In this document: piece after piece, positions 3,291-37,018 of the stretch
How positions within the stretch are numbered: position 1 is the first letter of the stretch
Layout: every line of letters begins with the position of its first letter
DNA from: Blautia faecicola
Lineage (GTDB): Bacteria; Bacillota; Clostridia; Lachnospirales; Lachnospiraceae
Reading direction: 5' to 3'
DNA: 64,000 nt
Assembly: GCF_004123145.1 (NCBI RefSeq)
Contig: NZ_SDKC01000001.1
Location: 2,575,501-2,639,500, forward strand
Made by a program: the position numbers and the translations under genes
The notes under the pieces: model-generated
Told to the model about the DNA's origin: nothing
Databases searched by the model: none
The model's input: the letters and a program-made list of their open reading frames with translations, nothing else

Positions 3291-3881
3291 TTACCATTCT
3301 GTTGGTTCTTCTGTTTTGGTTTCTTCTTCCAGATCAGTTTCTCTTTCTGGTTCAGTTTCCTCTTCCGGTTCGCTGTCCCCTTCTGGTTCGTTTTCCTCTT
3401 TCGGTTCACTCTCCCCTTCTGGTTCGTTTTCCTCTTTCGGTTCGCTCTCTCCATCTGGTTCGCTTTCCTCTTCTGGTTCGCTGTCCCTTTCCGGCTCAGT
3501 GCTTTCTTCCGGTTGTGTTTCTTCTGTTCCCAATTCTCCAATTGTCTGTTCGGATTCTTCAGGCTGATCTTTGCTTTGCCATTCGGCCTCTGCCTTTTCC
3601 AGTGCTTCTTCTATAATCTGAATTAAGAAGTCTTTCTGTTTCATGTGTTTCTTTCCGATGACTACTTTTAATCTCTGGAATAATTCCTCTGATACCTGTA
3701 CTGCTACTGTTCTTACTGCTCCCATGCTTATTTCTCCTTTTCCTTCCAGTCTGTTGAAATGTTCTTCAATGACCTGTTGTAAAAATTTTTGTGTGCTGCT
3801 TTCTGTGAGTTCAATCTCTTCTCTTACTTTCTCATGTAAGTCCATCGGGATCTTTCCGCAGATATTTTTCATTTCTGCCAT
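3291..3881 (-). CDS. Ribbon-helix-helix-like protein with acidic Glu/Pro/Ser repeat tail
   Basis: The protein has 196 residues from the ATG at 3881, which has an AAAGGAG site; an upstream in-frame ATG lacks one. Two similar helical segments, around residues 10-45 (IPMDLHEKVREEI..FLQQVIEEHF) and 58-95 (VQVSEELFQRLKVV..FLIQIIEEALE), look like a duplicated ribbon-helix-helix or coiled-coil unit. From about residue 120 to the end it is almost only E, S, P, T and D in short SEPEEE/NEPEGE repeats, matched by DNA tandem repeats at about 3330-3500. A DNA-binding accessory role in the mobile element is plausible, but the function is not known. Confidence 0.6.
   Translation of the reverse strand: MAEMKNICGKIPMDLHEKVREEIELTESSTQKFLQQVIEEHFNRLEGKGEISMGAVRTVAVQVSEELFQRLKVVIGKKHMKQKDFLIQIIEEALEKAEAEWQSKDQPEESEQTIGELGTEETQPEESTEPERDSEPEEESEPDGESEPKEENEPEGESEPKEENEPEGDSEPEEETEPERETDLEEETKTEEPTEW
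3330..3500. repeat. Short tandem repeats encoding the acidic tail
   Basis: Units built on GGTTCG..CTCTTTCGGTTC recur several times in this stretch. They encode the Glu/Pro/Ser repeats of the RHH-like protein on the minus strand. Length variation between strains by replication slippage would be expected. Confidence 0.7.
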
Positions 3882-7942: not shown

Positions 7943-8106
7943 TAGAGCGTGTCTGAAAAAGGCTTTTCGTGAGCTGCGAGTCTCAGTTTGTGGGAGATTT
8001 TATCCGAATGAGGGCGGCGTAGCGGGCTACGGCAACCGAATGAGGGTAAAATCTCCCGCAAAGTGGGGCTTGCAGATTGCGGAAATGATTTTTCAGACAC
8101 GCTCTA
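7943..8106. mobile_element. MITE copy 1 (160 bp, palindromic, TA target)
   Basis: The element starts GAGCGTGTCTGAAAAA and ends with its exact reverse complement, flanked on both sides by TA (7943-7944, 8105-8106). The interior is a diverged long palindrome with CCGAATGAGGG twice and a CGTAGC/GCTACG centre. It contains no gene. Copies 2 (about 16.99 kb, inverted) and 3 (about 36.69 kb) are nearly identical. Structure and TA duplication suggest mobilisation by an IS630/mariner-type transposase encoded elsewhere. Confidence 0.9.
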
Positions 8107-9195: not shown

Positions 9196-9525
9196 ATCTT
9201 CGTTACTCGCAAGAAGGTCCCGCCATTGCACAATAAGATTTTATGACCTGATTTTCTTCCGTAGGCACACTTTGGTTGTCCTTGTAGGACCACCTGCTGC
9301 TCGCTCTAACCTTTTTAGCGTTCTATTCAGCCTGATAGAGGCAAAAAAATACCCCGTTGGTTTCCCAACGAGGCATCAAAGACGATTCTATTCTGTTTTC
9401 TGTAAACTGTTATCCATCTTTCCTGGTGACCGTTTGCTGCAACCTTTTTTAACACTATTTTTGCAAATAAACAGGATGCCGACATTTGAAATACCGACAC
9501 CCTGTTTGCAAAATTCGAAAATGCC
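9196..9525. other. Intergenic region between convergent LysR and CocE genes
   Basis: This region holds the CocE terminator at 9343-9373 and an imperfect hairpin AAACAGG...CCTGTTT at about 9468-9504, closer to the CocE stop. I see no open frame with a ribosome binding site and no RNA gene. Confidence 0.6.
9343..9373 (-). terminator. Terminator downstream of the CocE-type hydrolase gene
   Basis: On the minus strand CGTTGG and CCAACG form the stem core, extended by two G-C pairs across one mismatch. A run of seven T residues follows. Confidence 0.7.
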
Positions 9526-11619
9526 TTACTGCTCCATACGAACCGTAATCTTGGACGGATACTGTCCGCCATGGAAGATTGTATTATGTGCAACAACCGT
9601 TGTCTGGCTGTTGAAACCGTCTTTTGTATTGCTGTTCGGGAATACAAAGTTCTTCGCACTGGAGGTAATCGTCACGCGAATTCGATGTCCCTTCTTAAAG
9701 CAGTTGGAAATCTTCGTCGTGAGGATTGTCAGCGGAACTACCTCGCCCGGATTTAAGAAGTCTGCATGGTCAAATCCATTGCGATACTTCGCAGATAAGA
9801 TACCATCTGCCAGTTTGATAGAACGGCCATTTTCATCTACATCCGTTAATCGAACCATGAAATCCGTGTCCGGTGCATCGGAAGCGATGTAAAGAGACAC
9901 GGTTATATCGCCTGTGATTACCACGTCCTTCTCCAGCGGATCCGTGGAGTAACACAGCATATCCTGACGTTTCTCCTCCTCTGTATAGTCCTCCGGAACC
10001 TCGATTTCATTTTCCGACATATCGATGATATGAGTTGACGGATTCTGAGGATCATAATCATAGCTGTCCTGGCTCTCCTTCTCCGGCAGTTTAAAGGAAA
10101 GAACTCCATCACCGGAGGATGTGTTGGCATGACCACAGCTGTCCAGGTAAATCTCTATTTCCTGGGTCTTCGGAATTGGCCAGTTGGAAGCTGTCTTCCA
10201 TGTTTCCTGTCCGACGGTATAATACTCAACTGGAGCTGTTTTATCAATTCCGTTGTCTACGCCCTTCAGATGATGCTCAAACCACTGGAAATAGATAAAA
10301 TCTAAGTCAAAGCGCAGAGCCTCGTCACCAAATGACACTCCATGCATATCGTATTTGCTGTTTCCGCTATGCTGCCACGGACCTAGAATTACTTTTCTCA
10401 TGCCTTCCGGGAAATCATGCACAAGCTCCAGAGCCTCTGTCGTTCCCATTCCATTATCATCAAACCAGCCGGACTGTATGAGAGCCGGGATCTGCGCATG
10501 CACAGAGCGCTCCTTCCAGTTGGAACGGTGCCAGAATTCATCATAATCTGAATTTTCCAGCCATTTATCCAGGAACGGAACAGGATATCCCAGTGCTTTT
10601 TCTGCAAGCTGATCTAACGGGCGAATGTTCAATACTTCTTCCCAGTCATCCCGCTCCATCAGTTCCGGATGGAATTTTTTCTGAGAAACAGCAAATCCCC
10701 AGGCAAGCATTCCAGAGGTAAAACAGCCGCCTCTTCTCGGCAGATCCACAAATGCACTTCCTGCACATACGACGCTGATCAAGGCTTTCAGGTGAGGATT
10801 TCCGCTAGCTGCTGCTGCCCACTGTACATATCCCAGGTAGGAACCTCCTACCATGCCGACACTGCCTGAAGACCAGGACTGATCTGCAATCCAGTTCAGA
10901 GTATCATCGCCATCTTCCACCTCAGAGTGATTCGGAATCCATTCTCCTTCGCTGAGGTTGCGGCCCCGCACGTCCTGAACTACGACTGCATAACCGCGTT
11001 GTACGTATCGATAGTAAACCTCACAGCCATCTTCTTTTCCATATGGTGTACGAATCAATACCGCCGGCACCTTCTCGTCCAGCCCAGCCGGCACATAAAC
11101 ATCCGTTGACAGATGAATACCATCCCGCATAGGAACCGGAAAGCTTCCAAGATGACTGACTCCGTATATTTTCTCATCCGGCCAGGTATTCTTCCACATT
11201 TTAAGAACCGTTCTGTCCTCCTCGCCGTTCCGTACCAGTACTGTAACCATTTCTCTTGCCGGACAGCACACTGCAAGCAGCTCACCATTCTCTACCAGCT
11301 TATTATTCGGGAATTTGACATCACGCTGCAGATACCAGGAATCCTTACTGCTTGTATAGCGCTCTGCGCCTTCCGGCAGATCTACGATGACTTCCCCGTC
11401 TCCCACAAGTTTCTGTTCATAGCTATGGAGCTGATGTGACAGCTTCAATAAGTCAATTTTGGTAAATGATTTATAAAAGGCATTGTCCTCTTCCGACAAA
11501 GTCTCCCACGGAAGCAGCTTACCCGATGCAATATCCAGTTTTTGAATGGAGATCGGCTGCGTATCAAAATCAAGTTCCGCATAAAGAATTCCCGATACAT
11601 ACAAATGATATAGTTTCAT
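9526..11619 (-). CDS. CocE/NonD-type alpha/beta hydrolase (X-Pro dipeptidyl-peptidase S15 family)
   Basis: The 697-residue protein contains PVPMRDGIHLSTDVYVP at about 161-177, the usual start of the S15 catalytic domain. The nucleophile lies in VGGSYLG (S260), an aspartate in SGWFDDNG (387-388) and the histidine in GPWQHSG (H417). A C-terminal jelly-roll X-Pro-like domain follows (TDFMVRLTDVDENG). About 150 N-terminal residues precede the catalytic domain and are longer than in most family members. No signal peptide is seen, so it acts in the cytoplasm, probably on peptides or acyl esters. It shares strand and neighbourhood with the epimerase and permease genes. Confidence 0.85.
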   Translation of the reverse strand: MKLYHLYVSGILYAELDFDTQPISIQKLDIASGKLLPWETLSEEDNAFYKSFTKIDLLKLSHQLHSYEQKLVGDGEVIVDLPEGAERYTSSKDSWYLQRDVKFPNNKLVENGELLAVCCPAREMVTVLVRNGEEDRTVLKMWKNTWPDEKIYGVSHLGSFPVPMRDGIHLSTDVYVPAGLDEKVPAVLIRTPYGKEDGCEVYYRYVQRGYAVVVQDVRGRNLSEGEWIPNHSEVEDGDDTLNWIADQSWSSGSVGMVGGSYLGYVQWAAAASGNPHLKALISVVCAGSAFVDLPRRGGCFTSGMLAWGFAVSQKKFHPELMERDDWEEVLNIRPLDQLAEKALGYPVPFLDKWLENSDYDEFWHRSNWKERSVHAQIPALIQSGWFDDNGMGTTEALELVHDFPEGMRKVILGPWQHSGNSKYDMHGVSFGDEALRFDLDFIYFQWFEHHLKGVDNGIDKTAPVEYYTVGQETWKTASNWPIPKTQEIEIYLDSCGHANTSSGDGVLSFKLPEKESQDSYDYDPQNPSTHIIDMSENEIEVPEDYTEEEKRQDMLCYSTDPLEKDVVITGDITVSLYIASDAPDTDFMVRLTDVDENGRSIKLADGILSAKYRNGFDHADFLNPGEVVPLTILTTKISNCFKKGHRIRVTITSSAKNFVFPNSNTKDGFNSQTTVVAHNTIFHGGQYPSKITVRMEQ

Positions 11620-11679
11620 AACGATTCATCTCCCTATTCGCTGCTGTGCACACATGTGTACACAGTTACTATGTTCCTG

Positions 11680-12855
11680 TTATACTCCGATGATGCCGCG
11701 GATAGCATAAGCAACTGCAATACCAAGGTAGTTGCCCATCGCTCCGGCCAGAACGCCCATCAGAAGACCGGTTGTAATCATAGTTTTCCACTGTGCACTT
11801 GATGCAATCAGAGCAGCTGTCGGGCCGTCAGAAATACATGCCACAGCAGAAAGAAGAACATACTCAAATTTTACCTTCAACAGTCTCGTTACAAGCAGAT
11901 GCAGTACAATGCAGCTGACGATAACGCAGAAGCAGAATAAGGTAATATAGAATGTAGATCCGAAGAACTGTTTCAGATCAACGGCGAATCCAATGGTGGT
12001 CAGGAATAACAGTGCCACAAAAAGTCCCAGGTCAAAGTTGCCGCGCAGCTTACGTACTGCCGGAATCTGTGCAATGATAATCGAGAAGGTCGTAATCAGA
12101 ATAATACGTCCTGCACTGCGGAAGCCCGGTCCAAATACCATACCTGCAATGGTCGTAGCTGCCCATACGGTTCCGAAGCCAATTGCCAACAGCCATGCGA
12201 TCTCCTGAATGGACCATTCCTTGGATGCCATCAGTTCTTCATGATCTCCGTCGCCCTGCAGCTCTGCCTCTGTCATCTCATACGGCCACAGCTTTCTCAG
12301 CCGTTTTGAATTTTTGTAGATAGCCGGTGCCGCAAACATAAGAATCAGACTCGGAATACCGATTACATAGTCTGCTGCATTAGCAGCCGCAATGGTTCCT
12401 CTTGAAGCATCAAGTCCAACTGCAATTGCTGTCAGGTTGGAACTTCCTCCTGTATAGGTTCCGACAAACATTCCGGCAATCTTCCATCCCTCATCAATCT
12501 TGGATGCGAATAAAACACCAAACAGGAATGCCATCAGGCAGACACTTGCCGCTGCAGATACCAGTGCAATAATCGAGTTTCTGTTTAACAGTTTTTTCAT
12601 CTGTCTCAGATCCAGACTCAGCAGACAGATAGAAACAGACAGCGGAACACAATAGCCGCTGAGTGCATCATAGGTTGGACTTGACACCGGTACAATTTTC
12701 AGGTTTGAAAGAACAATACCGGTAACAATAACCGTTAAAGCCGGCCCAAGTACCTTGAACACTTTAAAGCGCTGAAGCCAAAAGCCGGCAGCTACCATAA
12801 GAAACATAACCAGAAGCAATGCGCCTTCTGATGAAAATAATGTTGTGCTTTCCAT
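11680..12855 (-). CDS. DUF819 (YjcL-like) multi-pass membrane protein, probable transporter
   Basis: The 391-residue protein from the ATG at 12855 has about ten hydrophobic segments and the DUF819 pattern (GTYTGGSSNLTAIAVGL; AVACISDGPTAALIASSAQW, in part). The longer open frame upstream runs through a GC-rich intergenic palindrome and is rejected. The family is uncharacterised but often sits beside dipeptide epimerase genes. Lying between a dipeptide epimerase and a peptide-hydrolase-like enzyme, it may move peptides or amino-acid derivatives; that is inference. Confidence 0.85.
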   Translation of the reverse strand: MESTTLFSSEGALLLVMFLMVAAGFWLQRFKVFKVLGPALTVIVTGIVLSNLKIVPVSSPTYDALSGYCVPLSVSICLLSLDLRQMKKLLNRNSIIALVSAAASVCLMAFLFGVLFASKIDEGWKIAGMFVGTYTGGSSNLTAIAVGLDASRGTIAAANAADYVIGIPSLILMFAAPAIYKNSKRLRKLWPYEMTEAELQGDGDHEELMASKEWSIQEIAWLLAIGFGTVWAATTIAGMVFGPGFRSAGRIILITTFSIIIAQIPAVRKLRGNFDLGLFVALLFLTTIGFAVDLKQFFGSTFYITLFCFCVIVSCIVLHLLVTRLLKVKFEYVLLSAVACISDGPTAALIASSAQWKTMITTGLLMGVLAGAMGNYLGIAVAYAIRGIIGV

Positions 12856-12944
12856 ATATAATAAGTAATCCTTTCTAGTGATGAAGATGCATAACTGTTC
12901 ACATGTGCCCAGCAAAATTCTCTTCGTTATTGTAATATTCAACT

Positions 12945-13000
12945 CAAGCCTCCGCGAGGCCCGGCGTATGACTTCGGTCAACGCATCCCCGCGGAGCATT
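12945..13000. repeat. GC-rich intergenic palindrome between epimerase and DUF819 genes
   Basis: On the minus strand GCTCCGCGGGGATGCG is answered by GGGCCTCGCGGAGGC about 20 bases later, forming a strong stem. The sequence GCTCCGCG-GGATGCG also occurs near 8150, so it belongs to a dispersed family. It may stabilise the upstream transcript or weaken readthrough. Confidence 0.5.
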
Positions 13001-13011
13001 TATTATCCGAA

Positions 13012-14085
13012 TTAGAAATCCAGATCCAGACCAAGACCCGGTTTCTGAGACAGTGTATATACGCCACCCTCGATGGTGAAGCCACCCGGCATTCCCATCT
13101 CCGGATCTACTGCATACATGAAGCTGTCGCAATCTGCCTCTGTGATATTGCTCTTAGCTGCAACCAGGCTGACACCTGCTGCAATCGCAACCTTCGTCTC
13201 CAGCATACAGCCAACCATACAATTTACATGATTTGCTTCTGCGATTGCATTGATCTTCTCTGCCGGATACAGACCACCGCACTTCATCAGCTTAATGTTC
13301 AGAATATCTGCTGCATCCATCTTGCAGGCTCTTGCTGCATCGATCGGAGAATGAATAGATTCATCCAGCATAATCTGCATATCAACCTTCTGGCGAAGGA
13401 TCTTGGAACCGTCCATATCCCACCATGGCAGGCACTGCTCTACTGCATCAACACCGATTTTTTCGAATTCTTTCAGAACTCTTACCGCATCATTTACAGT
13501 ATATCCCTGGTTTGCATCCACACGCAGACGGATATCCGGTCCAACTGCTTCACGAATCAGAGTAAGTGCACGAATATCATCCGCCGGGTTAATTCCAGCT
13601 TTCACCTTCAGAATACGGAATCCATCACGCTCAACACGCTCTTTTGCTTCCTGTGCCATCAGTTCCGGCTTATCAATACCGATTGTCATATCTGTCACGA
13701 TCTGGTCACGGTATCCGCCCAGTACCTTGTACAGCGGCTGGTTCATAACCTTGCCCTTCAGATCATACAGTGCAATATCGATTGCAGCCTTTGCTGAGGT
13801 ATTGCCGGAAATCAGACGATCCATCATCAGATGAATTCCCTCAATATTCATCGGATCCATACCGATCAGACCCTGTTTAAACAATTTAAGAACTTCCAGA
13901 ACGGTTGCACTGTTCTCTCCGGTAACCGGTTCAAACGGAGCTGCCTCTCCGATTCCATAGATTCCCTCATCTGTCATAACTTTTACCAGAACATTCACAG
14001 AATGATCCTGTACGGCAAATGCAATACGGAACGGCTTCTTCATCGGAATGTGAATCACTTCTACTTTTACATCAGTAATTTTCAT
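13012..14085 (-). CDS. Dipeptide epimerase (L-Ala-D/L-Glu epimerase-like, enolase superfamily)
   Basis: The 357-residue protein has the epimerase residues at the expected places: K160-x-K162 in ILKVKAGI, metal ligands D190 (RVDANQ), E216 (VEQ) and D241 (LDES), and K265 in NIKLMKCGG. These match the muconate-lactonizing subgroup that epimerises dipeptides such as L-Ala-D-Glu from murein. The exact dipeptide cannot be read from sequence. It is the first gene of the set, driven by a TTGACT-N17-TAAAAT promoter overlapped by an inverted repeat. Confidence 0.88.
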   Translation of the reverse strand: MKITDVKVEVIHIPMKKPFRIAFAVQDHSVNVLVKVMTDEGIYGIGEAAPFEPVTGENSATVLEVLKLFKQGLIGMDPMNIEGIHLMMDRLISGNTSAKAAIDIALYDLKGKVMNQPLYKVLGGYRDQIVTDMTIGIDKPELMAQEAKERVERDGFRILKVKAGINPADDIRALTLIREAVGPDIRLRVDANQGYTVNDAVRVLKEFEKIGVDAVEQCLPWWDMDGSKILRQKVDMQIMLDESIHSPIDAARACKMDAADILNIKLMKCGGLYPAEKINAIAEANHVNCMVGCMLETKVAIAAGVSLVAAKSNITEADCDSFMYAVDPEMGMPGGFTIEGGVYTLSQKPGLGLDLDF

Positions 14086-14101
14086 ATTAGACCTCCATAC
14101 T

Positions 14102-14133
14102 GTAAAATTATTTTAAAATTAGTATAATTTTAC
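14102..14133. promoter_or_regulatory. Inverted-repeat operator over the epimerase promoter
   Basis: GTAAAATTAT at 14102-14111 is the exact reverse complement of ATAATTTTAC at 14124-14133, with a 12-bp spacer. The right arm overlaps the -10 box of the epimerase promoter. The likely binder is the divergent XRE/cupin protein. Confidence 0.5.
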
Positions 14134-14155
14134 TCTCACTAAAATATATAGTCAA
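14127..14155 (-). promoter_or_regulatory. Sigma-A promoter of the epimerase-DUF819-CocE gene set
   Basis: On the minus strand TTGACT (14150-14155) and TAAAAT (14127-14132) are spaced by 17 bp, about 45 bp before the epimerase ATG. Confidence 0.65.
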
Positions 14156-14325
14156 CCTTTTCCCGTTCAAAATACAAAATTAAGGATTTTGCATAAAAAA
14201 TATTCCATAAATCTGTGAAAATAAGCCAAAGTCGAAACAGATAATAAGGCAAATAGGAGAATAGTAAACTTTAATATTTTTATATATATAAAACAAATCA
14301 AACTCTGGTTTATTTACAAAAACAA

Positions 14326-14334
14326 TGGTATACT
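14326..14334 (+). promoter_or_regulatory. Extended -10 promoter of the XRE/cupin gene
   Basis: TGGTATACT fits the TGn-TATAAT extended -10 pattern about 65 bp before the start codon. No good -35 box is seen, as is common for such promoters. Confidence 0.45.
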
Positions 14335-14398
14335 AATACAGACAGCGGATTCCGCTGAAGATCATAGAATAAAGTACATCGAACAGGGGGATTACAAT

Positions 14399-14983
14399 AT
14401 GCTCGGTGAGCAGATACGCAACATAAGAAAATCAAGAGACTTTACACTAAAAGCCCTGGCTGAACAGACAGGACTTTCCATTGGCTATATATCCCAGATA
14501 GAGCGCAATCTGACGGACCCATCCCTGTCAACGCTTCGCAAAATCAGCGCTGCTCTGGATGTTCCCACCTATCTTTTTATGGGAGAAGCCGAAGCTGACA
14601 ACACACTGACTATCAGAAAAAATCAGGTCATCACTTTATCACAGCCCCATTCCAATATCCGTTACCATCTGCTGACGCCGATGCCATCGGCAGAATTTGT
14701 TCCCCAGTCTCTGATTATCGGTTTTGAGCTGGAAGCACATGCTAAGGATGGCGAACGCCCTGTGATTCACCCCAGTGAGGAGATCATCATGGTCCAGTCC
14801 GGAGAACTGGATGTTATCATCGGAACCGAGAGAATTCACCTGATGGAAGGGGATTCGACGCTGATTCGATCCAACCTTCCCCATATTGTGGAAAACACGA
14901 CAGACAAGCAAATGACCGGTATTTCCGTATTCACACCGGCCATCTGGTTTCCATCCATACGAAGAACTGAACAGAACGGATAA
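14399..14983 (+). CDS. XRE-family regulator with C-terminal cupin domain
   Basis: The 194-residue protein has an N-terminal HTH (IRNIRKSRDFTLKALAEQTG, SIGYISQIERNLTDPSL) and a cupin barrel from about residue 85 (HPSEEIIMVQSGELDVIIG, MEGDSTLIRSNLPHIVEN). Such regulators sense a small ligand in the barrel and control nearby catabolic genes. It is divergent from the epimerase-DUF819-CocE set and probably represses it through the inverted repeat at 14102-14133. The start follows an AGGGGG site. Confidence 0.88.
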   Translation: MLGEQIRNIRKSRDFTLKALAEQTGLSIGYISQIERNLTDPSLSTLRKISAALDVPTYLFMGEAEADNTLTIRKNQVITLSQPHSNIRYHLLTPMPSAEFVPQSLIIGFELEAHAKDGERPVIHPSEEIIMVQSGELDVIIGTERIHLMEGDSTLIRSNLPHIVENTTDKQMTGISVFTPAIWFPSIRRTEQNG

Positions 14984-14986
14984 AAC

Positions 14987-15713
<727 letters not shown>

Positions 15714-16158
15714 GGCAGCAAATGAACTATAGGAAATCATCATTCCAACCGAGAAGCCTGCCAGTATTTTGGATTGGAATAACCACCCCAGTGAGAGCGG
15801 AGAATACAGCAATGTTTCTAAGGTGTGTTTTTCTTTTTCGCCCACGAAGGAGCTTGCAGCCATGACAGACGACGCCATGATCGGGGATGATCAGAAAGAA
15901 GGATGGCATGATTTGATTCAATATCAGGCTAAAAATTTGCTGTTGCTGGCTGTACTCCCCATTGGGAGCAGGCAGCATATCCAGTAGTTTCTGAAAATCT
16001 GAGGCAGCATCGGGAGCAAATGATATTACAAACACAAAAATGGACGGCAAAGCAATGGTAAGCACAATCGGTACGATAAGAAGAACCGCGAAAACCTGCT
16101 TATTTGATGTAACGCTTCGCATATCCTTTTTAATTAAGGCGAATTGTCCAATATTCAT
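15714..16158 (-). pseudogene. ABC-2 type permease remnant, frameshifted and 3'-deleted
   Basis: The 5' part reads MNIGQFALIKKDMRSVTSN with a first membrane segment (VFAVLLIVPIVLTIALPSIF) and runs to IMPSFFLIIP. The frame then shifts and continues as MAASSFVGEKEKHTLETLLYSP..GWLFQSKILAGF, a typical ABC-2 permease coupling region. It ends abruptly by joining the PstB-like ATPase start near 15710; the remaining membrane segments are gone. It overlaps the end of the upstream ATPase remnant by 4 bp, as in the original operon. Confidence 0.8.
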
Positions 16159-16760
16159 GTATTTTCACGCTCCGTTTCCGCATGTTCCCGGTCGATCAGA
16201 GAAAAGTAGATTTCTTCCAATGACATCTGTTGTTCCGATACATGGTACAAATCACCACCGGCCTCTACAATTCTTTTTACGATGAGCGGGATGTCATGCT
16301 CTGAGGCCACATCCATCTCATAGATGTGATCTCCGATTTTCTGATATCTCATGTCCTTTGGCATACGGCTTGCTTTTATCCGTACCTTAGTATTCTGGCA
16401 GGCCATAGACCGCAGTTCTGTAATATCTCCTGTGGCAAATAAGCGTCCCTTGTTCATAAGTCCGTATGTCGTACAGATTTCCTGCGCATACCGAAGCTGA
16501 TGCGTACAAAGAAATACTGTGATTCCTTCGGCAGCCTGCTCCTGAATCAGAGCATTCACATTCTGTGCGCTTTCGGGGTCAAGGCCGGAGGTCGGCTCAT
16601 CCAGAAACAAAATCTGCGGACGGTGAAGTAATGCTCTGGCCAAAGAGAGCCGCTGGCGCATGCCGGTAGAATAAGTGGCCAGCTTGCGATCCATCACATC
16701 TGCCAGTTCCAGTCGCTGTAAGAGCAGTTTTGCTCTATCTGTACATTCCGAACGGCTCAT
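16155..16760 (-). pseudogene. ABC transporter ATP-binding protein, 5'-truncated (CcmA-like)
   Basis: The remaining 200 residues contain the signature YSTGMRQRLSLARAL, Walker B ILFLDEPTSGLDP, the H-loop LCTHQLRYAQEI and a normal C-terminal domain. Walker A and the first 90 or so residues are absent. Upstream the frame meets a stop within about 30 codons, close to the KTR terminator. A deletion probably removed the 5' end, so ATP binding is lost. Confidence 0.85.
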
Positions 16761-16806
16761 GCCAAAAAATTTGCAGTTCCTCTTTTCTCAATTGATGTGA
16801 TAAAAA

Positions 16807-16848
16807 AGACGCAGTACAAACCTATTCATCGGTCTGCACTGCGTCTAA
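16807..16848 (-). terminator. Terminator of the tetR-KTR operon
   Basis: AGACGCAGT and ACTGCGTCT pair across a 22-base loop and the minus-strand transcript ends in six T residues. The stem overlaps the KTR stop codon. Confidence 0.7.
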
Positions 16849-17201
16849 GCGTCTGGCATTTTGATTTCTTCAATTTTTCCGTCTTTGAAACGAATCACAC
16901 AGGTGTATTTGCACTTTGGACAAAATAGAGGAAAGTCCTCTAATACCGTATGTGGGCGTATCTGTGTTCTTGTTTTGCCGTCACATCTAGAGCGTGTTTG
17001 AAAAATCATTTTCGCAATCTGCAAGCCCCACTTTGCGGTATATTTTACCCTTATTCGGTTGCCGTAGCCCGCTACGCCGCCCTCATTCGGATAAAATCTC
17101 CCACAAACTGGGACTCACAGCTCACGAAAAGCCTTTTTCAGACACGCTCTAGGGCAGCGAAGCCATTCTAACAGCTCGCCTTTCCTATCTGACTGTTTCA
17201 T
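16845..17201 (-). pseudogene. Cysteine-rich KTR-type zinc-ribbon protein gene split by MITE copy 2
   Basis: The first exon-like part (17201 to about 17152) reads MKQSDRKGELLEWLRC. After the MITE the frame resumes with RCDGKTRTQIRPHTVLEDF and continues PLFCPKCKYTCVIRFKDGK to a stop at 16845. Deleting the 160-bp element with one TA joins TGCC+CTA+GATGTG into C-P-R-C, giving an unbroken 64-residue protein with CPRC and CPKC pairs and the K-T-R motif. The start overlaps the TetR stop as ATGA. The family is small, probably zinc-binding, of unknown function and common near mobile resistance genes. Confidence 0.85.
16988..17151. mobile_element. MITE copy 2 (inverted orientation, inside the KTR gene)
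   Basis: The same 160-bp palindromic element as at 7.95 kb lies in opposite orientation, flanked by TA at 16988-16989 and 17150-17151. One terminal repeat has a single change (GTTTGA instead of GTCTGA). The interrupted reading frame proves the empty-site sequence and the TA duplication. Confidence 0.92.
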
Positions 17202-17770
17202 GTACATTCCTCCTGTGCCGCTAATATTGCACCCTGATACGCCCGTTCCAAATGTGATTGTATGACATTTTCATCGTACTTCATTGAATTGTTGGCAATG
17301 ATACTTGCGTACCCATGGACAAACAGAAAAATCGTCAGGAAAATCTTTTTGGTTTGCTCCATACTCATATTCAAGGCTTTCTGCATCGCAGAAAGGACTG
17401 GTGTCAGCTCGTCTGCGTCAATCAGCTCAAGCATGGTTGCTCCACTAAAATAATCCGACTGAAACAGGAACCGAAACAAATGCGGCTCCTCAATGGCAAA
17501 GCGGATATAGTTCATCCCAATTCCAAGCATGACGCCTTTCTGAGGACTCTTTAGATTCATCAGATATTCTGAGTGATAGCTATCTGCCTTCGCATAGACC
17601 GTCCGTTTCAGTTCTTCAATGGTCGAAAAATGATACATAACGGGCTGTGTGGAGCAGTGAAGTCTTTCTGATACGGTCCTTGCATTGATGTTTTCCACGC
17701 CGGCTTCACGGGCAATCGCAAAGGCCGCGTCAATAATCATCTCTTTTGTGACTTTTGCTTTTGCTGGCAT
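17198..17770 (-). CDS. TetR-family transcriptional regulator
   Basis: The 190-residue protein has an N-terminal TetR HTH (IIDAAFAIAREAGVENINARTVSERL, CSTQPVMYHFSTIEELK, in part) followed by an all-helical ligand domain. It starts at an ATG behind GGAGGTG. Its stop overlaps the KTR gene start, making a two-gene operon. The decayed ABC transporter downstream was probably its target. A short ATAAC-TTGC-GTTAT repeat at 17789-17802 in its upstream region may be its operator. Confidence 0.9.
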   Translation of the reverse strand: MPAKAKVTKEMIIDAAFAIAREAGVENINARTVSERLHCSTQPVMYHFSTIEELKRTVYAKADSYHSEYLMNLKSPQKGVMLGIGMNYIRFAIEEPHLFRFLFQSDYFSGATMLELIDADELTPVLSAMQKALNMSMEQTKKIFLTIFLFVHGYASIIANNSMKYDENVIQSHLERAYQGAILAAQEECT

Positions 17771-18169
17771 ATTCGCACCTCCGTATTTATAACTTGCGTT
17801 ATGTATAATACGAATTATATATCAATAAGCAGAGTTTTTCAATCCGTCCGAAGCAAAATTTGCGGACAATCTACCCTTTCAGACACTTTCATTTCTTTTG
17901 CATAGCATTTTTTGTCTGGTTGAGAATAGCGGGTAGTTTATTGTTTCACACATCTCCATTTCTTCGTTGGGAGAAACTCCGATGTGCTCAACAGGCTAAA
18001 GCCATAACAACAGAAGCTGTGAAAAAGGCTCTGTTGCTTCTGATAATAGAAAAAGCGTAAGCGTCAAATAGGTTCAAACTATATCAGCCCATTTGGGCAT
18101 AAGAAAACCCCGGAAAACCTTGATTTTCCGGGGTTTTGTAAACCATTTTGATATAGTCTGAGCAGTCGA
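17771..18169. other. Intergenic region between rpsI and tetR
   Basis: The region holds the AT-rich tetR upstream sequence with a possible ATAAC/GTTAT operator, and the rpsI terminator at 18104-18137. A 66-codon plus-strand open frame in the middle has no ribosome binding site or family resemblance. I see no other feature. Confidence 0.55.
18104..18137. terminator. Bidirectional terminator after rpsI
   Basis: AAAACCCCGGAAAA and TTTTCCGGGGTTTT form a perfect 14-bp stem with a six-base loop. Outer arms ACTATATCA and TGATATAGT extend the symmetry. Confidence 0.9.
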
Positions 18170-18562
18170 TTATCTCTTGCTGAACTGCGGAGCTCTACGA
18201 GCTGCTTTCAGACCGTATTTCTTACGTTCTTTCATTCTCGGGTCACGAGTCAGGTATCCGGCTTTTTTCAGAACCGGTCTGTACTCAGCGTCTGCCTGCA
18301 GCAGGGCACGAGCGATACCATGACGGATAGCTCCAGCCTGTCCGGTAAATCCACCACCGTGAACGTTTACCAGAACGTCAAATTTTTCTGTATTGTCTGT
18401 TGCTGCCAGTGGCTGGCGAACAACAACTTTCAGAGTCTCCAGTCCGAAATACTCGTCGATGTCTCTTTTATTGATTGTGATCTTACCAGTTCCTGGTACC
18501 AGGTATACTCTGGCGATAGATTTTTTTCTTCTTCCTGTTCCGTAGAATTTTGTAGTAGCCAA
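18170..18562 (-). CDS. rpsI: 30S ribosomal protein S9
   Basis: The 130-residue protein has the family start [16 protein letters not shown], the central [20 protein letters not shown] and the basic tail RAPQFSKR that reaches the P-site tRNA. It starts with TTG, nine bases after a perfect AGGAGG. It follows rplM by 16 bp in the conserved rplM-rpsI operon and is closed by the bidirectional terminator. Confidence 0.97.
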
Positions 18563-18578
18563 TGTTACTTACCTCCTA

Positions 18579-19007
18579 TTAAAATGTTAAAACTTCCGGT
18601 TTCTGAGCTTCATGTCCGTGCTCTGCACCAGCGTATACATGAAGTTTTTTGATCATCTGTCTTCCCAGAGGTCCTTTTGGAAGCATACCTTTTACAGCAA
18701 GTTCGATGACTTTTTCCGGTTTCTTGTTCATCATTTCTCTCAGAGTGGTTTCTTTCATACCACCAACATAATCAGAGTGGCTGTAGTAGATCTTCTGATC
18801 TAATTTTTTACCGGTCACTTTGATTTTCTCAGCATTGATTACGATTACATAATCACCTGTATCTACGTGAGGAGTGAAAACTGGTTTGTTTTTTCCTCTT
18901 AATACGCTTGCCACTTCGGAAGCTAAACGTCCTAATGTGCAGCCTTCAGCATCTACTACATACCATTTTCTTTCAATCTTATCTGGATTAGCCATAAAAC
19001 TGTTCAT
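18579..19007 (-). CDS. rplM: 50S ribosomal protein L13
   Basis: The 142-residue protein contains [36 protein letters not shown] and [21 protein letters not shown], typical of L13. The ATG at 19007 follows AGGAGGGAAATCC. It is the first gene of the rplM-rpsI operon with a consensus promoter about 110 bp upstream. Confidence 0.97.
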
Positions 19008-36514: not shown

Positions 36515-37018
36515 TAATCTTTCCTCCAAATTTTCATTTAATATGCTCAGTATACCAGATAATGGAATTGTTGACAATTTCCATTTTGTAGTTGCAGGAT
36601 TCATCATATTCAGGATTACGGTTCATTCCGTATCAGCAACACACCTCGCGGAATATTACCAGTGAACCGTAACTCTTCAGGTTCATCCGGGCTAGAGCGT
36701 GTCTGAAAAAGGCTTTTCGTGAGCTGCGAGTTCCAGTTTGTGGGAGAGTTTATCCGAATGAGGGCGGCGTAGCGGGCTACGGCAACCGAATGAGGGTAAA
36801 ATATACCGCAAAGTGGGGCTTGCAGATTGCGGAAATGATTTTTCAGACACGCTCTAACAGGACAGGGCATTCCCTGACAGCTGTTTTTCTGTACAAAATC
36901 ATGAAAACGGTTGGATTTTTTTGTGCTATTTTTCTGACTTCTTTTAATGACTTCCATTTCAAAAACTGTTACACTGGGAGCATAATGCTATATTATATGT
37001 TATTGGAGGTTTTTACAA
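36515..37018. other. Intergenic region containing a diverged repeat and MITE copy 3
   Basis: From the dipeptidase start there is an AT-rich upstream region. A small inverted repeat follows (TTACGGTTCA and TGAACCGTAA at about 36614 and 36662, enclosing CACCTCGCGG). MITE copy 3 comes next, then the MATE upstream region with TTGGAGG at the end. Open frames seen here lie inside the MITE and are not genes. Confidence 0.7.
36693..36856. mobile_element. MITE copy 3
   Basis: The element lies in the same orientation as copy 1, with perfect 16-bp terminal repeats and TA on both sides (36693-36694, 36855-36856). The base after the right TA is A, not G as in the other copies, so the true end is ...CGCTC and TA is the duplicated target. 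It sits in intergenic DNA upstream of the MATE gene. Confidence 0.92.

Follow-up and report, generated by a model that had tools for sequence, protein, structure and literature searches.

A MITE bordered by TA splits a Cys_rich_KTR gene in Blautia faecicola, with a resident IS5-family insertion sequence as its likely transposase source

We examined a 64,000-nucleotide stretch of the Blautia faecicola genome (hereafter the window), in which a gene for a small Cys_rich_KTR zinc-ribbon protein (KTR) lies on the minus strand in two parts. The 5′ part (17151..17201) comprises 17 codons reading MKQSDRKGELLEWLRCP, the last residues being the first cysteine of the first knuckle and a proline, and shares 15/17 residues with the closest relative, locus L078. 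The 3′ part (16845..16988), 47 codons and a stop, reads RCDGKTRTQIRPHTVLEDFPLFCPKCKYTCVIRFKDGKIEEIKMPDA-stop and by itself matched PF14205 (Cys_rich_KTR) in a profile search (E 5e-22; 77.8 bits, the cut-off being 25.5). Like proteins of this family, the locus gene has CPRC/CPKC and KTR motifs, but it differs from them in its break within the first knuckle, after Pro17 and before Arg18. An intact gene for a 190-residue TetR-type regulator (tetR; 17198..17770, minus strand; TetR family matches below cut-off) overlaps the KTR start with its stop codon as ATGA. The first-pass annotation had called the two genes translationally coupled; the overlap recurs in L078, L079 and L081 (3/5 closest relatives) and, since an AGGAGG is also present by eye upstream of KTR's own ATG, we infer, from the overlap only, that such coupling is plausible. 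At the other end, a hairpin followed by a T run, likely a terminator (16802..16846, minus strand), overlaps the KTR stop codon and appears similar by eye in L079-L081. Further downstream lies an ABC ATP-binding protein gene without its N-terminal part (16155..16760, minus strand; family match), which begins a decayed ABC region: the transporter genes at window 14987-16158 are fragments, and an ORF at 15558-15878 joins a permease fragment with the beginning of an ABC ATPase. An Rfam search of 15000-18600 found nothing at gathering score, and 1101 bp of the locus had no match in a plasmid collection.

Between the two KTR parts lies a 160-bp body with ends GAGCGTGTYTGAAAAA (16990..17149), delimited by its sequence, its arms and comparison with its family. 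It is bordered on each side by TA (16988..16989 and 17150..17151), which from the sequence and the family comparison we take as the two copies of a duplicated target. The arms (16987-17068 and 17071-17152) are 73% complementary, and the fold of the element beat 200/200 shuffles in DNA folding (z -4.86). The body is short, lacks a transposase and has terminal inverted repeats, as expected of a MITE, and at the Pro17-Arg18 junction it falls within the first CxxC zinc knuckle. Judged by sequence, the interruption is a MITE insertion, and the earlier description of a MITE at TA that splits a zinc-ribbon gene agrees with what we find, a TA-bordered element of 160 bp within a PF14205 gene of 195 bp. 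Both flanks of this copy read CTAG, so a 2-bp and a 4-bp duplication are indistinguishable at the KTR site.

We then compared the locus with its relatives, keeping 80 TetR loci out of 401 relatives in named genomes. In L078, where TetR is 94% identical in amino acids, KTR lies without the element at 3570-3764, starting at an ATGA overlap with tetR. This uninterrupted gene of 195 bp and 64 residues is the one that had been predicted to overlap the tetR stop, and it upholds the proposal that a complete 64-residue KTR protein once existed here. Arrangements vary among the other close relatives: in L079 and L081 KTR has a longer N-terminus and still overlaps tetR by ATGA, the KTR start in L082 lies 36 nt past the tetR stop, and L080 has a further TetR-like gene between tetR and KTR. 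Neither the MITE nor its exact ends occurred in the fetched stretches of these 80 TetR loci of other genomes. TA was present at the exact insertion site in 0/5 closest relatives, L078 having CA. Because none of the five has TA, the base-exact empty KTR allele is a reconstruction that assumes a prior synonymous change to CTAG; the claim that the empty site could be rebuilt exactly thus stands for the two parts, which join in phase, and not for the bases of the site itself. Within window 13001-19000, L078 resembles the locus in DNA sequence only between about 17824 and 16809, which covers tetR, KTR and the hairpin. This tetR-KTR-hairpin block (window 16803-17864; L078-L082) is found in distant genomes with different neighbours, as if cassette-like. 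Comparison of window 9437-18168 with the corresponding region of a sister species (G002) gave no same-orientation match longer than 250 bp at E 1e-20, and G002 has other ORFs there. Among 98 genomes, DNA of the KTR 3′ part was found in the source genome, with weak matches in 8.

TA and the 160-bp body together add 162 bp, exactly 54 codons, so the reading frame is unshifted, as had been claimed; the cut comes from one TGA carried by the inserted copy. Starting from the KTR ATG, translation runs for 28 residues before it meets this TGA inside the element, so a full zinc ribbon is impossible from that ATG. The nearest sister copy (L002) differs from the KTR copy at 1/160 bases and has the same TGA; the frame that bears it is closed in these two and open in 43/45 copies, which indicates that the TGA arrived with the element. 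There is no other stop and no frameshift in the KTR 3′ part. Synonymous/nonsynonymous codon differences of this part were 14/1, 12/2 and 12/3 against L080, L079 and L081, respectively, and 11/7 and 7/9 against L078 and L082, two loci that are similarly far from the others. We read KTR as a gene lost recently, following a period of selection. The recent inactivation proposed earlier is likewise supported by the sister copy, with its 1/160 difference, and by a 3′ part free of further lesions.

The MITE belongs to a large family in this genome. With up to 3 mismatches, its end motif occurs 7 times in the window against 0.23 expected: six occurrences are exact and lie in three MITE copies, and one has 3 mismatches. 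With up to 2 mismatches, there were 128 occurrences in the genome and 0 in the control. Besides the KTR copy, the window holds a copy that is empty in G002 (7943..8106, TAs included) and one that is filled at the corresponding place in G002 too (36693..36856), both recognised by the end motif. An initial search, with 40 of 87 candidates scored, gave 41 places of full length. From the fetched loci we then collected 48 end pairs 40-180 bp apart, of which 45 were exactly 160 bp and three short pairs (48, 67 and 70 bp) were excluded from the counts; the search motif contained TA, with 4 substitutions tolerated. There are therefore at least 45 distinct 160-bp copies with TA on both sides, a count of intact copies only and a lower bound, since lone ends and wider end pairs are also present. 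With all copies read on the strand of the window copy, the left TA is preceded by C in 34, T in 9 and G in 2, and the right TA is followed by G in 42 and A in 3; a Y thus stands before the left TA in 43/45 copies and an R after the right one in 45/45 (Y-TA-R sites in 43/45). CTAG stands at both ends of 32/45 copies, and since the 13/45 copies without CTAG on both sides share only TA, the duplication is TA (2 bp). A natural empty site gives the same answer: at the copy at 7943-8106, the G002 flanks adjoin with 99% identity and a single TA. The statement that TA duplication was proved from one genome hence fails at the KTR site, where CTAG is ambiguous; the duplication rests on the family and on the empty site of the other copy.

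In one G002 copy (L046), CA replaces TA on the left side. DNA related to the MITE was found in 7/98 genomes, the source genome counted, and in 3 unannotated faecal records of a phage collection. An in-phase open frame of at least 120 codons crossed the site in 9/45 copies, a rough measure of in-gene insertion, made without a control and blind to short genes such as KTR. The 48-bp element at L166:491-542, bordered by TA on either side, consists of hardly more than its two ends and may be a minimal mobile unit. Elements or ends also lie head to tail with one TA in common (L161:1062-2106, L163:1019-1901, L164:1013-1895 and L177:605-930), as a MITE plus an insertion sequence (IS), an IS followed by an end motif, or two MITEs; such arrays may occur because each element end creates a new C-TA-G, the preferred target. 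Gene inactivation by prokaryotic MITEs is well documented, and the MITEs described in the excerpted text of PMC10969869 are likewise short, multicopy elements with terminal inverted repeats, a duplicated target and gene inactivation. A literature search by title found no such MITE for Lachnospiraceae.

The same genome carries an IS of 879-882 bp, recognised by end motifs spaced 883-886 bp from each other. It has its 16-bp ends in common with the MITE, with nothing shared beyond them, and carries TA at both ends (4/4 copies inspected); three 879-bp copies (L161, L163 and L164) are identical over 883/883 bases with TAs. Two overlapping frames, meeting at an A/G run, make up its coding sequence and contain DUF4096 and DDE_Tnp_1 parts, and NF033580 (IS5 family) scored above cut-off for both frames (the first frame and DUF4096 tested with the L165 copy, the second frame and DDE_Tnp_1 with L161). 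The L165 copy itself (L165:983-3363) is broken by another insertion sequence, which we take to be IS256-like. Six unannotated faecal records of the phage collection matched the IS, and the plasmid collection gave 3 weak matches. By these profile matches the resident IS is a member of the IS5 family, and by its duplication and overlapping ORFs it is IS427-like. In the table entries excerpted from PMC3281130, 2-bp duplications are given for most IS5/IS427 entries, and the IS427 group resembles the resident IS in its short inverted ends, its mostly 2-bp duplication and, in some members, two overlapping ORFs with a frameshift motif; group members measure 832-865 bp in the rows compared, against 879-882 bp here. 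The likeness reaches the MITE only through its 16-bp ends. The 879-bp IS is likely the source of the MITE's transposase, so far as shared ends can tell, and would thus be what moves the MITE.

Read in one phase, the window MITE is also a match to a listed protein family. An ORF through it (16950..17171, plus strand), probably not a gene, matches Pfam DUF6783 (PF20574) with E 4e-25, as do MITE-spanning ORFs at L003:1285-1788 (E 3e-28), L176:399-851 and L178:230-814. The source genome has 86 matches to PF20574, in many places on both strands, the KTR copy included. The family was present in 4/60 family genomes (source counted) and 0/14 control genomes, and a literature search for the name DUF6783 found no occurrence. 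In a single phase, 43/45 copies are open on one strand, 30/45 on the other and 29/45 on both, and any other frame is open in 0/45. We rejected the element as a coding sequence on the two subfamily consensuses, which differ by 4 synonymous and 12 nonsynonymous changes (of 16 codons) in each open frame. The longest read-through ORFs followed had 71 and 41 native codons per side in L003, 60 and 35 in L176, and 27 and 112 in L178; four native-codon stretches from them had no Pfam match and the whole ORFs no NCBIfam match. A further candidate, L027, with 499 downstream in-frame codons, seems by eye to be a shadow ORF. Although PF20574 is listed as a protein family, it matches both MITE strands, which makes DUF6783 probably a misread transposon, and on these matches we think it very likely that DUF6783 is a translated palindromic MITE and not a protein family.

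KTR genes also occur outside this locus. PF14205 was found in 34/120 family genomes with the source counted (33 over cut-off), and an alignment of 15 relatives shows no variation at Trp13, Cys16, Cys19, Cys40 and Cys43. The source genome has three instances: the gene at this locus, an intact one at 2507427-2507585 and a remnant at 2095243-2095356 (L188; G000:C1), a second broken KTR gene of the same genome. The genes adjoining this remnant are presumably a relE/higA-like pair. A model of the L078 homologue was all beta (pLDDT 79.5, pTM 0.55); the best four PDB matches in a structural search with it were LysW entries, at a non-significant E of at least 0.7, and a PDB search by sequence gave a best E of 0.49. 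KTR lay within 1200 nt of tetR in 18/80 TetR loci (71 of which had 1200 nt downstream), and 705-783 nt after tetR in 13/80. The idea that KTR is a special partner of regulators was unsupported, as 60 KTR matches in selected loci have varied upstream ORFs by eye, and some have none. At L084:3570-4515 an Rce1-like protease gene overlaps tetR and stands between it and KTR, and a similar order was seen elsewhere by eye. In L203, L204 and L213-L216, KTR genes sit after a GTPase ORF, which we presume to resemble tetracycline ribosomal-protection proteins. A literature phrase search returned the KTR name in an excerpted table row matched to transposon Tn6822.

Two alternative accounts concern the split gene itself. 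To L078, TetR is 94% identical in amino acids and 93% in nucleotides, while the KTR 3′ part reaches 85% and 87% and is closest to L079 and L080 (90% nt); the 3′ parts of L078 and L082 are 84-88% identical in nucleotides to all others. On these comparisons the locus may be mosaic, possibly from an older time. The differing nearest relatives of TetR (L078) and the KTR 3′ part (L079/L080) would also suit two KTR parts that derive from different genes and were joined by recombination between element copies, but the reading phase, the spacing and the TA at both ends fit one insertion, and the remoteness of L078 and L082 in the 3′ part means that the odd one may be L078; we hold such a junction to be highly improbable. 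The gene might alternatively not be dead: an in-frame ATG inside the MITE (17009) opens a possible restart ORF of 54 residues (16845..17009, minus strand), seen at the sequence level only, which keeps 47 native KTR residues and loses the first cysteine. The absence of a stop or frameshift from the 3′ part would accord with a shortened KTR protein, yet recency also accounts for that integrity, no clear ribosome-binding sequence is seen by eye ahead of this ATG, and the product, with 3/4 cysteines left, would lack Trp13 and Cys16, both invariant in the 15 aligned relatives. We therefore give a living, shortened KTR little credence.

Other alternatives concern the element. Its bare TA duplication would suit an IS630/Tc1-type transposase, but an IS of the same genome with the same 16-bp ends encodes an IS5-family transposase, and 2-bp duplications are common among the IS5/IS427 entries excerpted from PMC3281130, which leaves an IS630/Tc1 origin extremely unlikely. 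A different view is that the element is built for read-through, DUF6783 being a real inserted peptide and KTR being cut solely by the TGA of the KTR copy and its sister. Rickettsia palindromic elements, as excerpted in PMC10969869, are palindromic and about 150 bp long, and the MITE is similar, with 54 codons including the target, mostly open in one phase; it differs in that none of the ORFs followed was fused in frame to a recognisable protein. We consider a peptide-inserting element very unlikely here.

Taken as a whole, the locus is, very probably in our judgement, best explained by an IS-driven MITE insertion with TA duplication that cut KTR. A 160-bp non-autonomous element, driven by the transposase of the resident 879-bp IS5-family (IS427-like) IS, would have entered C-TA-G at KTR codons 17-18 and duplicated TA; ribosomes starting at the KTR ATG would stop after 28 residues at the element's TGA, and the upstream TetR gene would be untouched. 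KTR would formerly have been expressed and useful, and presumably nothing functional is made from it now. The insertion into KTR is in itself an ordinary event of a known type, well anchored, with a plausible, recently active parent IS and natural empty sites between sister species. For the databases the finding would be a correction, since proteins with DUF6783 are probably misannotated or fused ORFs.
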